Source of the DNA: Gammaproteobacteria bacterium
GTDB lineage: Bacteria; Pseudomonadota; Gammaproteobacteria; JABXHR01
Reading direction: 5' to 3'
NCBI GenBank assembly: GCA_013373515.1
Contig: JABXHR010000082.1
Coordinates: 1 to 48,076, forward strand
Length of the DNA: 48,076 bases
The translations under genes were made by a program, and so were the position numbers. Positions within the stretch are counted from its first letter, which is position 1. Every line of letters starts with the position of its first letter. Positions 1 to 6,198 of this stretch are shown here, piece after piece. Below the pieces are notes generated by a model, which worked only from the letters and a program-made list of their open reading frames with translations, had not been told where the DNA came from and searched no databases.

Positions 1-600
1 ACCACGCGCAGACATTGTCAATCTAGAACATGCAACTCATTACCAGCAACGGTTGCCCCCGGTCATGTGTCGATGCGTTCGCCGCGCCTTTCTTTGCGGT
101 GACGATTTCACAACGGGCCGCAACTACGATCAGCAACCGTTGCTCCGAAAAAAGCGTTGAATACTTGAACGTTTAGCCACAATTTCAAATGTATTCGTCG
201 ACGACATCATGGCCTATGCCATCATGTCAAATCACCGGAAGGCCGGCCCCGTAACATCTAGTGGTCAGGCTTCGCGCTGACCAGCTAGAACTAACAGACC
301 GCGAAGTCATCGAACGCTGGCTATCGGTTTATACTGGTGACGAAAAATTACGCCAATATCTCAACGGCGAATTACACGCTGAAGCCGCTTCCGAACTCGA
401 GAACTCAGTCATTCCAGCGCTTCGAGGTAGACTGCATAGCCTCTCTTGGTTTATGTCCTGCCAAAACCAGCAAATTGCTGTTACGGCCAATAAGGAAGAC
501 GATGTCACGGGTCATTTTTATTCTGGCTTCGCCTCCACGTAGACCTCCCGTCAAGCATCTCAGTCGATCTTAAGAAAAACCGCAGTCATTCGCCGCCTGA
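1..600 (+). pseudogene. Decayed REP-associated tyrosine transposase (RAYT), copy 1, cut by the window start
   Basis: Pieces of an IS200-like/RAYT (Y1 transposase) protein are readable in three frames. From base 2 the reading is PRADIVNLEHATHYQQ...MCRCVRRAFLCGDDF, the usual RAYT N-terminus, stopping near 160. Bases 170-250 give a LATIS...DIMAYAIMSNH segment. From 261 the frame changes to VVRLRADQLELTDREVIERW, then a SWFMSCQNQ...ANKEDDVTG segment matching the RAYT WFM-RCLNE...ANREDGCTGRF region. After about 540 another shift gives a SQSIL-like remnant. A 16-base GC-rich insertion (236-251) splits the catalytic Asn-His-Tyr-His (HUH) motif, and the Tyr codon behind it is TAA. The gene is inactive. 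The first two or three codons lie outside the window. The family is recognised from memory of conserved RAYT motifs, not from a search. Confidence 0.75.
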
Positions 601-635
601 GTTCACTCAACGGCACATCGCTCCATCATCATCTA

Positions 636-3122
636 TCACCAGTCACCGGCAGAACGTAGCGCCAACAGATCGTCAATCGTCCCTGGTTTGCCAGTGTAGT
701 AGCCTTGAACCATGTCGAAACCCATCGATTTGACCATTGCTAGTGTCTTGTCGTCTTCAACACCCTCGGCAACGCTTGTTTTGCTCAGACTTGAACATAG
801 CTGTTGTATTGACGCCAAGATACGACGCTTGGCCGAATTGTCGAAAGCACCTGTGACGAATGATGGGTCGATTTTGATTAGGTCGACTGGAAACTCAGAT
901 AAGTAGACAAATGCACCATGACCCGAGCCAAAGTCATCCAGTGCAAGCTTGCTGCCTAGCTCGGTAATCGCTTGAGCGCTCCGACGGCTGAGGTTTAAGT
1001 CCCTTATTGCAGCGGTTTCAGTTATCTCAAATACAATGCACTCGGGTGGCGCTTTGGTCGCTTCAAACACGCTGCCCAAAAAACCGGCGATATCGCGATC
1101 ATTAAAACTAGCGGCCGACAGATTGATGTTGATTTTCACACCAGGATAGGAGTGATGTATGCGATTGATATTCTGACATACTTCTCTGACCACCCAACGG
1201 TCGATGCTATTGGCGACCCCGCTCTGTTCGGCGTAGGGTATAAACTGAGCCGGACTGATAATGGTCTCATCGTCTGCGACCATTCGACACAGGGCTTCAA
1301 AACTCACGATGGTGCCGTCTTCAACCGATCTAATGGGCTGGTAATTGACGATAAATCTATCTTCCTTCAAGGCTCGCTCGATGCTGCGTTTCCAGTCTAC
1401 GGTAGCCTGTAACAGTGGCAACATCTGTTCATCGCCTTGGTACACGCGAAGAAACGCTTGACCTTCTCGCTTGATTTCAAACATTGCGCTGTCCGCACAG
1501 TGAACTAACCGCTCAAACCCTCCTTCCCAAAGATCAAATGGCACCAAACCGGCGCTAAAACCGGCACTGTGCACACTGTTGCCCGCTATGAAAAATCCCG
1601 CCCCTGCAGCCGACTGGACGTCAGTCAACCGCTTTTTGACCTCAGACAAGGGCATCTCTAGAAGCATCGCGAATTCGTCACCACCAAAACGCGTGATCAA
1701 GGCGTCTTCGCCAAACTGCTGTTTCAGTAACTTGGCAAAATGAAGCAACACTTGGTCGCCAGCGAGGTGACCAAAAGTGTCATTCAATAACTTAAAATGA
1801 CGCAGGTCGATGAAACAGAATATACCCGGCATTCGAAGGCTGAGCCGCTCGCTGACCAACTCACGAAAGCGATCTCGACTAAGCAGTTGGGTCAACGGAT
1901 CATGATGGGCAAGATACCGAAGCGTATCTGTGCTTTTTGCAACCTCGGATTCGAGCTGCTCAAGCCGGTGCGAGACCTCTAAGGTGGATCGATGAAGTAA
2001 CGTCAGCTCGTTATCGAATGGATCCGCGGCCACTGGACCAATCGTACTGCGAATCTCAGCAAACGCTTTGTCCGCCAACAATGGGATGGTTAAAGCGATC
2101 TTGCGCAGCCGCGAAAAGGGTTCGTTTAACCAATACACGGTAGCAATGGCGCAAAAAAACACCAGCGTGCTAGAGGTGTATATCAGCGATGTCCAAAACC
2201 GCTCCATGGTGTCCATCTGAGCCTGCACGGGCTCGAGGATTAGCAGCGCAAACGGCAATGCACCATATCGGTATGCTGCATCATGAAAAATCAACTCATA
2301 GGCCGTGTTGTCCTCGTAGACAAGCACTGGCGCTTCTGGTCCGGGCAGCTCCAATTGAGCCAATAGACTATTCAAGCGCAGCGCATCACTTGCCGCGCTG
2401 AAATAATAACCGCTTTGCGCAAGCCTAAGGACCGTTTCGCGAATTGGTACAGAAATATTGCTAAGCTCACTTATAATGGCCACTTCCAAGCCCGTGGCCT
2501 CTTTCAATTCACGAATCACGGCATCCAATGTCGAGCTAACCACCACAACCCCGGCCAATCGATCGTTGAGCCAAATGGGATGCGTATCATAAATTCGACA
2601 AACGGGCGCACAGTCGAAGCTAGGCTTTGACTCAAGAGAGAGCAAAAAATTCTCGAGCAGCGCCCTAGGCAATTCGTGTTGATCAGCATCGTAGGACAGC
2701 TGGCCGAAGCTCGCTAGCAGCTCGCCTGAGTGCGCATAGAAATACACTAACTTATCGGGCTCACTGTTTAAGGCAAGCTCCCAGTACTTTTCAAGCACCC
2801 TTCGCACATCACGGCCATCATCAGCTTGCTCGGAGATCAGTACACTCAAATGATTGGCGAACATGGCAGATTGGGTCGAGAATCGATCAGCGTAATTATT
2901 GACTAGCTGCGAAAAGTGTTGCTTGAGCGCTAGGCGCGCATCGAGCCGTTGTGCGACAAAAAAACGCTGGGTGTAGACGTATGAAGCCGTGGCGGCGACG
3001 AGCATTAGAACCACAAACATCACAGCCAACTTCCCAAAAATGGCCCATTTAACGCTGAAGAATGTCTTACGCAAAACGACTAGTATTCCACCGGAAAAAA
3101 CAGCTCTGGCTTGGTCTCCCAC
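636..3122 (-). CDS. Membrane-bound GGDEF-EAL protein (cyclic-di-GMP synthesis/degradation)
   Basis: An 828-residue inner-membrane signalling protein that should make and/or degrade cyclic di-GMP. Order: TM helix (about 29-49), a periplasmic sensor region of about 250 residues with a Cys-x3-Cys pair (171/175), second TM (about 311-331), a HAMP-like linker, GGDEF domain (about 403-560; motif RFGGDEF at 478-484) and EAL domain (about 580-820). EAL residues look intact: FEAL (608-611), NINLS, EITE, DDFGSG, KIDPSF, EGVED and QGYYTGKP. No RxxD inhibitory site is visible ahead of GGDEF. The GTG start at 3122 overlaps the end of the upstream binding-protein gene by 43 bases. A TTG at 3074 behind GGTGG is an alternative start and would remove 16 residues. 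The overlap implies one transcript with the binding protein. Net activity cannot be told from sequence. Confidence 0.9.
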   Translation of the reverse strand: MGDQARAVFSGGILVVLRKTFFSVKWAIFGKLAVMFVVLMLVAATASYVYTQRFFVAQRLDARLALKQHFSQLVNNYADRFSTQSAMFANHLSVLISEQADDGRDVRRVLEKYWELALNSEPDKLVYFYAHSGELLASFGQLSYDADQHELPRALLENFLLSLESKPSFDCAPVCRIYDTHPIWLNDRLAGVVVVSSTLDAVIRELKEATGLEVAIISELSNISVPIRETVLRLAQSGYYFSAASDALRLNSLLAQLELPGPEAPVLVYEDNTAYELIFHDAAYRYGALPFALLILEPVQAQMDTMERFWTSLIYTSSTLVFFCAIATVYWLNEPFSRLRKIALTIPLLADKAFAEIRSTIGPVAADPFDNELTLLHRSTLEVSHRLEQLESEVAKSTDTLRYLAHHDPLTQLLSRDRFRELVSERLSLRMPGIFCFIDLRHFKLLNDTFGHLAGDQVLLHFAKLLKQQFGEDALITRFGGDEFAMLLEMPLSEVKKRLTDVQSAAGAGFFIAGNSVHSAGFSAGLVPFDLWEGGFERLVHCADSAMFEIKREGQAFLRVYQGDEQMLPLLQATVDWKRSIERALKEDRFIVNYQPIRSVEDGTIVSFEALCRMVADDETIISPAQFIPYAEQSGVANSIDRWVVREVCQNINRIHHSYPGVKININLSAASFNDRDIAGFLGSVFEATKAPPECIVFEITETAAIRDLNLSRRSAQAITELGSKLALDDFGSGHGAFVYLSEFPVDLIKIDPSFVTGAFDNSAKRRILASIQQLCSSLSKTSVAEGVEDDKTLAMVKSMGFDMVQGYYTGKPGTIDDLLALRSAGDW

Positions 3123-4666
3123 GATGTCTTCGGCAGCGCATAGCGCAGGCGTTTATCGAAACCCCACATGGTATTGGGATAAAACAGCGGAATCGTGCCC
3201 AAGTCGTTGATCAAAACCTCACTGGACAAACGATAGAGCTGAAGTTGCTGTGCTTTGTCATTGGTCAACTTGGCCTTGTTAACAAGCGTTTCGAGTTGGG
3301 GATTTTGATACCGTCCGTAGTTATAAGACCCCGTAGACCCGGCCTGATCCTTCGAGATAAACAATGGGTCAAAAGTATATTCGGGCGAACCCTTCGTAGG
3401 CCCCCAGCCGAAGATCATCAAACTGTAATGATTCTCCCCAAGCTTGGGCATATAGTTTTTTCGGTCAAGGTGGCTCAATTTAACGTCAATGCCCAGTACA
3501 GCCAACTGGCGCTTTAGCTCAAGATTAATGCCACTTGTCCATGTACCATTATCAGGGACCACCAACACAAAGCCATCTCCATATCCAGCCAACTGGATCA
3601 GTTCACGCGCACGCTCCACATCCCGTATAGGCACTGAAAGGTTTGGGCTTGCCTCATACCAGTCCGGACGAAAAATTTGCCCAGCAGGCGTGCCTCCGCC
3701 GCCAGGAAACTGACGTGCAATGGCTTGGCGATCCAGCACAATGTTAATGGCTTGGCGAACTCGAATATCTTTAAATGGATTGCGCTCAAGCCGTTTGCCT
3801 GATGCATCAAATGCACTGATTGCTCGCTCAGAGTAAGTATCCAGCATTAAGAAATAGATATTTTTCGTGGCCCGACTGAAAGTTCTGATGCCCGAGTCGA
3901 TCAGGCGAGCTTGAGATGAATAGCTTAGTTGCTCAGCGACATCAACTCGCCCGTCCAACAACGCTTCGATCCGCGCCTCTTCATCAGCAATAAACTGGAT
4001 AACTAGAGTTTGCCAATATGCAGGGTGCCGCCGGTAATGATCGTTGCGCAGCAATTGCAGCTGGTTATCTTTCATTGCCCCAAACTTAAACGGCCCAGAG
4101 CCAATAATGGTACTACCTTGGCTAAAGGCCTCAGGATCATCGGGGTGCAATAAAGAAGCCGGAATGACTTTGATCAATGCTAGCTGGGCGTATAAATCAT
4201 CACGGGTAGTGGTCGTGGCACGGAAGACGTGATCGGACACCACCGATAACTGAGTAATCGTCTGTGCCAATGCCTTAAATAGCCCGCTGTTACCGACGCG
4301 CATTGCACGTTTGATCGAATAGACGGCGTCTACCGCTCGTACAGGATCTCCGTTGTGAAACACTATATCGTCGCGCAACGTGAATTCCCAATTGAAGTCG
4401 TCGATTCGATTAACCGAATCAACCAGGCCCTTCCGATTACTTCTGTCGTAGGGATCTATCGGCGCGATCGAGTCAAAAATAAGGTGGCTAATGTGCGTCT
4501 CAGCCGCCGTCGTCTCGACATGTGGGTCAAGCGTTCTGGGCGAATATGCATAGGCTAAACGAAGCTCCGCAGCAAGAGAATTTGCAGTAGCAACCACAAA
4601 GCAATAGATCAGTAAAAGTCGAGACAATTTCAATCCTTTGTTAATCATCACTAAAAGATAGGGCAT
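3080..4666 (-). CDS. Periplasmic substrate-binding protein, family 5 (peptide/dipeptide type)
   Basis: 528 residues, the usual length for SBP_bac_5 proteins (OppA/DppA type). An N-terminal signal peptide ends near residues 30-33 (NSLAA before ELRLAYAYSPRTLDPH, the typical mature start of this family). Family features follow: ETHISHLIFDSIAPIDP, FTLRDDIVFHNGDPVRAVDAVYSIKRA, GSGPFKF and a C-terminal YPNTMWGFDKRL region. The ATG at 4666 follows AGGA; an in-frame ATG at 4648 is also possible. No permease or ATPase genes of the ABC transporter lie next to it. Instead its 3' end overlaps a GGDEF-EAL gene. It may therefore present a periplasmic ligand to that sensor rather than feed a transporter, which is inference. 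A transporter encoded elsewhere is equally possible. Confidence 0.88.
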   Translation of the reverse strand: MPYLLVMINKGLKLSRLLLIYCFVVATANSLAAELRLAYAYSPRTLDPHVETTAAETHISHLIFDSIAPIDPYDRSNRKGLVDSVNRIDDFNWEFTLRDDIVFHNGDPVRAVDAVYSIKRAMRVGNSGLFKALAQTITQLSVVSDHVFRATTTTRDDLYAQLALIKVIPASLLHPDDPEAFSQGSTIIGSGPFKFGAMKDNQLQLLRNDHYRRHPAYWQTLVIQFIADEEARIEALLDGRVDVAEQLSYSSQARLIDSGIRTFSRATKNIYFLMLDTYSERAISAFDASGKRLERNPFKDIRVRQAINIVLDRQAIARQFPGGGGTPAGQIFRPDWYEASPNLSVPIRDVERARELIQLAGYGDGFVLVVPDNGTWTSGINLELKRQLAVLGIDVKLSHLDRKNYMPKLGENHYSLMIFGWGPTKGSPEYTFDPLFISKDQAGSTGSYNYGRYQNPQLETLVNKAKLTNDKAQQLQLYRLSSEVLINDLGTIPLFYPNTMWGFDKRLRYALPKTSWETKPELFFPVEY

Positions 4667-5039
4667 CTATCCTGCATTACTTGTTAGTAACTTTCATTAA
4701 CGACATCCTAGCGCGCTAAAGTAGCCTTTGCAATGTTCAAATCAAGCCAGATATCTGTACGTAGAAATCGGTCGATACTCAAAGTGGAACACCCATAATG
4801 ACAACAAAGAGCCATCTGTTCTACTGGAGAAATGCTTGGAAACTGCCTGTGTTCTACTGGACAGACGCTTGGAAACTGCCTTGAAATTGCATGCGTTGTG
4901 CTGCAGCCAGCCACCTTAAAGGCGCAAGCAACTACTAATAAAGAGGGAAACCACCCGGGACAGCCCCACCTTAACAAAACGGTTACTTTCCAACAGCTTT
5001 GTCAGCGTGAGGCCTTGAGGTATCGTGCAGACTGCCCAT
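4667..5039. other. Intergenic stretch upstream of the binding-protein gene
   Basis: No gene is supported here. It contains the presumed promoter and leader of the minus-strand binding-protein/GGDEF-EAL unit and a 33-base tandem duplication (4818-4883). The short open frames covering it have no recognisable domain, and their apparent peptide repeats come from the duplication. It ends where decayed RAYT copy 2 begins. Confidence 0.5.
4818..4883. repeat. Two-copy 33-base tandem repeat
   Basis: Two adjacent 33-base units (4818-4850 and 4851-4883) share GTTCTACTGGA at the start and GCTTGGAAACTGCC towards the end. They differ at only a few positions. The repeat lies between the binding-protein gene and RAYT copy 2. 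No protein or regulatory role is evident. Confidence 0.8.
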
Positions 5040-5430
5040 ATGACCCGACCACGCGCAGACATCGTCAATCTAGAACGCGCCACTCACTACCAGCAACTTT
5101 TGCCCCCGATAATGTGTCGTTGCGTTCGCCGCGCCTTTCTTTGCGGTGACGATTTCGCATTTGACATCATGGCCTATGCCATCATGTCAAATCACCGGAA
5201 GGCCGGCCCCGTACCATCTAGTGGTCAGGCTTCGCGCTGACCAGCTAGAACTAAAAGACCGCGAAGTCGTTAAACGCTGGCTATCAGAAGCAACCCAGGA
5301 CAGCTCCGTCTTGACACTGCCTAAAAGCGAAGTCCTCGACCCGTTTCTTGCTCTTGCCACACATTACGCCACACGCGGACTTCCTGTTTTACTTGGCCTT
5401 CCCAATACCACGGATGATCAAATACGCTAG
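5040..5430 (+). pseudogene. Decayed RAYT transposase, copy 2
   Basis: A second decayed RAYT gene, closely matching copy 1 in two blocks: bases 1-109 match 5048-5156, and 203-325 match 5163-5285. Relative to copy 1 it has lost 87 bases between these blocks. It starts with ATG at 5040 (MTRPRADIVNLERATHYQQ), runs through CRCVRRAFLCGDDF to DIMAYAIMSNH, and is then broken by the same 16-base insertion as copy 1 (5196-5211). Past the insertion the other frame resumes as YHLVVRLRADQLELKDREVVKRW. After 5285 the sequence no longer matches copy 1; the open frame to 5430 is not recognised and may be decayed C-terminal sequence. It sits just upstream of a REP-like array, the usual partner of RAYT genes. 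Confidence 0.72.
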
Positions 5431-5674
5431 TAGATGCAAACACTCGCTGATGGCGCCGGTAATTTTGGCCGCGATCCTGTGCCCTTTGAGCGTTGTGATC
5501 CCTTAGGAAGTGACGCCCGCCGTCAAATTGGCAGAATTAATGGACACCACACCGAGTTTTCTGCGAGCAACCAAGCGATCGCTAATCGCCGATAACTTGG
5601 CAAAGCTCCAGCTCACTGAGAGCTGCAGGGGAATTCAAACTCAGCAGCTGAATTGATCGTCGAGTCAAATTCAG

Positions 5675-6198
5675 CATTCCCGCGAACGGAGTCGCGGTCC
5701 GGTCCCACAGGGTCGTGCTAGATAGCGCTTTCGTGGGATGTTTAACTCCGCTTCAACGTAGCTCCTCGCGCTTGTGGGATGTTGAACTCCGTTTCAACGA
5801 AGCTCCTCGCTCCTGTGGGATGTCGAGTTCCGTCTCGACGAATCGCTCTTAGGCTTCGCTTAGCTCAGCATTCCCGCGAGCGGAGTCGCGGTCCCACGGG
5901 GTCGTGCTAGATAGCGCTTTCGTGGGATGTTGAACTCCGCTTCAACGAAGCTTTTCGCTCTTGTGGGATGTCGAGTTCCGTCTCGACGAATCGCTCTCAG
6001 GCTTCGCTGAGCTCAGCATTCCCGCGAGCGGAGTCGCGGTTCGGTCCCACGGGGTCGTGCTAGATAGCGCTTTCGTGGGATGTTTAACTCCGCTTCAACG
6101 TAGCTCCTCGCGCTTGTGGGATGTCGAGTTCCGCCTCTAAGAATAACTCTTAGGTTTCACTGAACTCAGCTTTCCCTGCAACGGAGTGCAGGTTCCAC
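5675..6198. repeat. Cluster of REP/BIME-like palindromes
   Basis: About eleven units share one plan: a GTGGGA head, a stem, a loop close to CTCCGC or TTCCGT, and the complementary stem. Forward units start near 5733, 5774, 5815, 5922, 5963, 6075 and 6115, with stems of the TTGAA/TTCAA or TCGAG/CTCGA type. Reverse-oriented units lie at 5675-5708, 5869-5897, 6017-6050 and 6170-6198. The first three have stem CCGCGA/TCGCGG (first unit slightly degenerate) and the last has CCTGCA/TGCAGG around the same ACGGAG loop. Stem changes are paired, so the fold is kept. A higher-order block (one reverse unit, a spacer with GTCGTGCTAGATAGCGC, then two or three forward units) recurs three times. There are no genes in the array. 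Neighbouring RAYT remnants support the REP reading. Confidence 0.85.

Follow-up and report, generated by a model that had tools for sequence, protein, structure and literature searches.

Short hairpin inserts at three conserved histidine codons in a dispersed family of RAYT-type transposase remnants

Introduction

The transposases of TnpA Y1 subclass 2.3 are characterized, in the part of their published account considered here, by high copy number and low similarity within a genome (Quentin et al. 2018, PMC6006769). The corresponding part of the report on TIRtrons gives their ends as of the GGGGWSAS type, termed the TIR motif, and also describes the Rickettsia palindromic elements, which are palindromes located inside coding genes (PMC3733652). 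RAYTs are held to mobilise REPs and REPINs in trans (PMC3116915, PMC8266576), and a TnpA_REP of Marinomonas cleaves next to 5-bp palindromic REPs, its cleavage sites being CT and CA (PMC8266576). Short inserts at histidine codons are not mentioned in the parts of the accounts of subclass 2.3 (PMC6006769) and TIRtrons (PMC3733652) on which this comparison draws.

Broken copies of RAYT genes are ordinary. The copies described here are not, since they combine divergence at synonymous sites with near-identical inserts at three conserved histidines. The window, meaning the whole stretch of DNA analysed, is the 48,076-nucleotide contig C185 of a gammaproteobacterial draft genome of 287 contigs and 3.65 Mb, the order of which is represented by just one further genome within the searched set.

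Results

The window contains two RAYT remnants on the forward strand. Copy 1 (1-540) is cut off on the 5' side by the start of the contig, and copy 2 (4951-5285) comprises the left end of an element (GGGACAG...), a 5' leader, an ATG at 5040 and a RAYT remnant for which the family homology stops near 5285. A pattern search located the identical 16-mer CGGAAGGCCGGCCCCG at 236-251 and 5196-5211, as reported in the initial annotation, which also had the 16-mer parting the Asn-His codons from the Tyr-His-Leu-Val-Val codons in each copy. The description is accurate for copy 2 (AATCAC / TACCATCTAGTGGTC), in which removal of the 16-mer does give NHYHLVV, but not for copy 1 (AATCAC / TAACATCTAGTGGTC), where the Tyr codon is replaced by TAA (252-254). 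A further lesion of copy 1 is a TGA in place of a Trp codon (near 157-159); copy 2 is internally deleted at about 5159/5160. The two copies are 96% identical over 203-325 and 90% identical over 1-112. In both, the HUH motif is split by the 16-mer and the sequence stops before the Tyr region, and the order found in an intact RAYT or TnpA Y1 protein, HUH followed by Y---NP, is present in neither. Identity of the family with intact RAYT-like genes elsewhere reaches at most 59% over 81 residues (other genomes), a level of homology that identifies the family as RAYT. Judged by sequence, the window copies are RAYT family remnants and not working members. A repeat array with units of roughly 150 bp lies at 5671-6195 of the window and contains palindromes like those around an intact RAYT on contig C107.

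The observation in the initial annotation is real but incomplete, as two further inserts of like build had not been listed. Insert 1 of copy 1 (46-61, forward strand) is GCAACGGTTGC CCCCG, located after the CA of the His codon of a conserved YH, and insert 2 (133-148, forward strand) is GCAACCGTTGC TCCGA, located after the CA of the His codon of a conserved DH; each amounts to a net addition of 15 nucleotides relative to intact RAYTs and is in frame. Insert 3 (235-251, forward strand, including the 16-mer) consists of the hairpin CCGGAAGGCCGG and CCCCG after the CA of the first HUH His, and its net addition of 16 nucleotides shifts the frame. In copy 2 insert 1 (5093-5108, forward strand) is GCAACTTTTGC CCCCG, with the loop changed and the 4-bp stem retained, insert 2 is taken out by the internal deletion, and insert 3 (5195-5211, forward strand, including the 16-mer) has the same sequence as in copy 1. 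Each insert directly follows the CA of a His codon, begins with a perfect 4-bp stem with a loop of 3-4 bases (GCAA-CGG-TTGC in insert 1, GCAA-CCG-TTGC in insert 2 and CCGG-AAGG-CCGG in insert 3) and ends with CCCCG or TCCGA. The chance of such a starting stem in a random stretch of the same composition is about 1.3%, and it was seen in three of three inserts, a notable pattern, albeit one recognised post hoc.

A DNA search of the same genome revealed related stretches on contigs C287, C69, C24, C193, C99, C198 and C247, with weaker ones elsewhere. The search for RAYT-flanked copies of the 16-mer that was proposed with the initial annotation found the homologous site on C24, C69, C193 and C99 with one or two mismatches. 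The recurrence of the same site on four other contigs with no more than two mismatches rules out a chance origin of the 16-mer, and the presence of the same inserts on five contigs rules out an artefact of a single contig. The C99 copy has inserts 1 and 3 and an uninterrupted His codon at site 2. On C247 (L186:5919-6074) an in-frame deletion runs between inserts 1 and 2 through their common sequence, and the family homology stops at site 3. In a degraded copy, C198b (L080:320-480), the palindrome of site 1 is turned the other way round and site 2 has palindromes unlike those of the other copies. Intact relatives free of inserts, which had also been proposed as a check, were found as RAYTs in 16 other genomes and on C123 of the present genome, all without inserts. 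The alternative that the 16-mer is normal coding sequence in a family alignment was refuted for the relatives examined, and for the inserts in general it was ruled out in about 25 relatives.

The insert sequences are almost confined to the RAYT gene family in their own genome, and across 368 other genomes of the class they do not exceed background. The pattern CA-hairpin-YCCSR gave 18 matches in 457 kb of the same genome, 14 of them from the family, compared to 1 for the reversed control; a match in gcvT is ordinary coding sequence. A mini-hairpin element dispersed genome-wide was not seen outside the RAYT family in this 457-kb sample, which is part of the genome. No GTAG stands beside the insert hairpins, and the GTAG or CGTC tag and high extragenic copy number of REPs and REPINs were not observed; nor, in the 457-kb sample, was in-frame insertion into many unrelated genes of the Rickettsia type. 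The stability of the short hairpins and of the folded transcript is not unusual, and a structured RNA was ruled out by a whole-transcript fold no better than shuffles. Kissing between the CGG loop of insert 1 and the CCG loop of insert 2, which trade places in C198b, is not claimed, as C193 and C69 break the pairing. The suggestion in the initial annotation that insertion is tolerated by frameshifting is weakly opposed by the sequence, since insert 3 separates both metal-binding histidines and the +1-prone CCC-G at the insert end of copy 1, copy 2 and C193 is TCC-G in the other three of the six copies (C24, C69 and C99), a pattern not that of a programmed +1 frameshift or bypass.

The copies have in common a left end (GGGACAGCCCCATCTTAACA) that starts with GGGACAG and extends about 100 bases up to the start codon; further upstream they bear no relation to one another. 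Since the left end is common and the upstream flanks are unrelated, the anatomy is that of a dispersed element rather than of one local duplication. The left end is conserved, with CGGGACAG, and an inverted copy lies at C198:3626-3685. Pieces of the RAYT C-terminus are located on C173 (more than one), C210, C198 and C287, and contigs break at elements (start of C185, start of C193, end of C287). Almost every copy is dead, through truncation or for other reasons, while the left ends are kept. Among the options given in the initial annotation, the best supported is that the broken form makes up a family of its own and spreads in trans, with the 16-mer in six copies on five contigs that have like left ends and unrelated upstream flanks, and spread in trans is likely on these sequence features, with some elements including toxin-antitoxin genes. 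Genes for a ribbon-helix-helix protein and ParE (type II toxin-antitoxin) are beside RAYT remnants on C210; a Gp49-like gene with an HI1420-type antidote, followed by an unassigned small gene and ParE, is beside remnants on C198; and HicA/HicB-like genes, recognised by eye only, are beside remnants on C173. This placement suits cargo that would be moved by a transposase supplied elsewhere. N- and C-terminal RAYT remnants flank or adjoin type II toxin-antitoxin genes on three contigs (L189:2696-4030, L185:4331-6186 and L193:10083-10962).

A helper transposase with matching ends was not found in the assembly. The single RAYT on C123 (L079) is intact, has no inserts, contains NHYH and YVDLNP, and is 56-58% identical to the family; no other uninterrupted NHYH site of this kind turned up in the assembly, and directly upstream of the C123 gene a matching left end is missing. 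It matched profile NF047646 with an E value of 2.8e-11, a match that falls below the curated cut-off, and a search of solved structures with it gave no useful relative. A related-locus search of genome contigs and viral contigs gave no homologues in other organisms. Pattern searches gave 23 matches on genome contigs and 2 on viral contigs, all outside RAYT genes, and two more viral patterns gave nothing; phages had no match, and plasmid RAYTs among the matches listed were less than 45% identical.

Comparison of copy 1 with C193 revealed 4 and 2 differences among 68 first and 68 second codon positions of the 5' part and 35 among 67 third positions; for the 3' part, with codons taken in the shifted frame proper to it, there were 5, 10 and 30 differences at first, second and third positions. 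For pairs of distinct lineages pS of the 5' part was mostly 0.4-0.8 with pN below 0.15. Because of these codon-position differences and pS and pN values, the copies appear to have diverged while both halves were selected as protein, each in its own frame. Close pairs gave no sign of selection in the 3' part (pS 0.14 and pN 0.14 for C24 and C193; 0.06 and 0.06 for copies 1 and 2), and therefore those genes were dead by then. The claim that the second copy was made after the transposase was already broken fits the close pair formed by copies 1 and 2 but fails for the family, in which, on both sides of the insert, other copies differ from each other at roughly half of the third codon positions and seldom at first or second ones. 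In contrast to third positions, with a pairwise identity of 58%, the inserts are 93% identical, and in 100,000 draws of random triplets of 16-nt background windows none was as conserved. Flank divergence ranges from 6% to 30% with insert divergence about 5-7% throughout; the latter is flat, at 7.5% where flanks differ by less than 12% and 5.5% where they differ by more than 26%, these values coming from non-independent pairs and small counts. Conversion of one copy, also raised in the initial annotation, and short-tract gene conversion around the inserts in general are unsupported, as third-position similarity does not rise near the inserts and no tract is homogenised.

Discussion

Plain inheritance of a single old lesion does not explain near-identical inserts in diverged copies. 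From the sequences, the inserts would either have entered several diverged copies late or be ancestral and strongly constrained. We tentatively prefer late entry, perhaps with placement by a Y1 enzyme and persistence of broken copies by movement in trans, as a possible history that falls short of probable. The two window copies are members of a mostly dead, genome-wide family of RAYT-type (TnpA Y1, HUH) mobile elements, and the inserts would be mini-hairpins that entered several already diverged copies late, each gene being inactivated in cis. By analogy, a Y1 transposase cutting beside CA near small hairpins could have placed the inserts, a suggestion made because the relevant part of the published account has TnpA_REP cutting at CA beside small palindromes (PMC8266576). 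Broken copies, some with toxin-antitoxin cargo, would have been kept because mobilisation of their ends in trans was still possible. The flat insert divergence is as expected for young, unconstrained inserts. Against late insertion, four or more diverged lineages would have had to receive the same sequence at an identical base position, no donor for the inserts was seen elsewhere in the same genome and neither a homing agent nor a helper transposase with matching ends was found; moreover, ancestral insertion with strong nucleotide constraint until the death of each copy predicts equally flat divergence.

Ancestral inserts would require the fewest insertion events. The copies would have diverged as coding genes with the inserts already in place; these would have been tolerated, being in frame at the first two sites and recoded or bypassed in some way at site 3, and also constrained as nucleotides, for example as hairpin binding sites. 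Coding constraint in both halves, each in its own frame, agrees with this history, which we consider rather unlikely, as does the position of C99, without insert 2, near the base of the tree (weak support). In the hairpins of inserts 1 and 2 of the main copies every substitution is within the 3-nt loop, which hints at constraint. Late insertion is nevertheless favoured because insert 3 interrupts HUH between its two histidines, inserts 1 and 2 replace histidines conserved in intact relatives, the CCC-G slip site is not kept in half of the copies and stem bases of insert 3 are changed in C193 and C99, and because no single 15-nt excision at site 1 or 2 restores the His codon. The ordinary stability of the hairpins and folded transcript also speaks against ancestral inserts. 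It is improbable that one dead insert-bearing element spread in trans and that conversion from diverse functional insert-free copies then replaced the stretches between inserts, sparing heterologies of 15-16 nt and producing mosaics that mimic selected divergence. The copies are indeed mosaic, the nearest relative along C193 being C69, then C24, then copy 1; third positions differ right to the insert edges, and since the assembly breaks at elements active copies could be missing. However, an insert-free donor of the family is absent from the assembly, and near-total retention of inserts in every copy demands strong bias. Simple local duplication after a single lesion, of copy 2 from copy 1 or the reverse, is in keeping with the closeness of the two and is very improbable: as a full account it is ruled out by the lesion on four other contigs and by copy 2 being as close to C287, over the part covered by C287, as to copy 1, and the family is marked by three inserts rather than one.

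A wider proposal is that precise and repeated insertion of a 16-17 nt hairpin is possible after CA in conserved His codons of its own transposase family, silencing diverged copies within one genome at the same three positions. This would be a site-specific mini-insertion, self-limiting or host-imposed, of a kind not described before. We regard this proposal as doubtful. If the inserts did arrive repeatedly, there would be a precise, seemingly undescribed way of placing tiny hairpins, with bearing on the birth of REP-like sequences and the silencing of Y1 transposases; if they were tolerated, an HUH enzyme would work with its motif interrupted.

The closest described systems share features with the family. 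In copy number and divergence it fits the description of TnpA Y1 subclass 2.3, and as in that subclass RAYT-like proteins are long (about 330-430 aa for most intact relatives), several per genome and mutually divergent, with the Y---NP signature in the intact relative on C123; unlike the subclass, the copies here are fragments with three short inserts that the part of its description considered does not mention (PMC6006769). TIRtrons and TIRYTs likewise have a RAYT-like gene in the element, the left end GGGACAG is near GGGGWSAS, and end sequences also occur solitary in the genome, but no clean pair of terminal inverted repeats could be delineated for the family elements. Short hairpin-forming gaps inside coding sequence are also known from translational bypassing elements (phage T4 gene 60, mitochondrial byps), but the sequence around the present inserts has no matched codon pair for take-off and landing. 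Like the Rickettsia palindromic elements, the inserts are palindromes within coding genes, two of three in frame, but they are much shorter and are in RAYT copies only, with no unrelated genes. In common with REPs and REPINs they are short palindromes adjoining a dinucleotide open to cleavage by an enzyme of this type, as CA is in Marinomonas, and they differ in having no GTAG tag, in a length of only 16-17 nt and in occupying one gene family rather than scattered intergenic sites.
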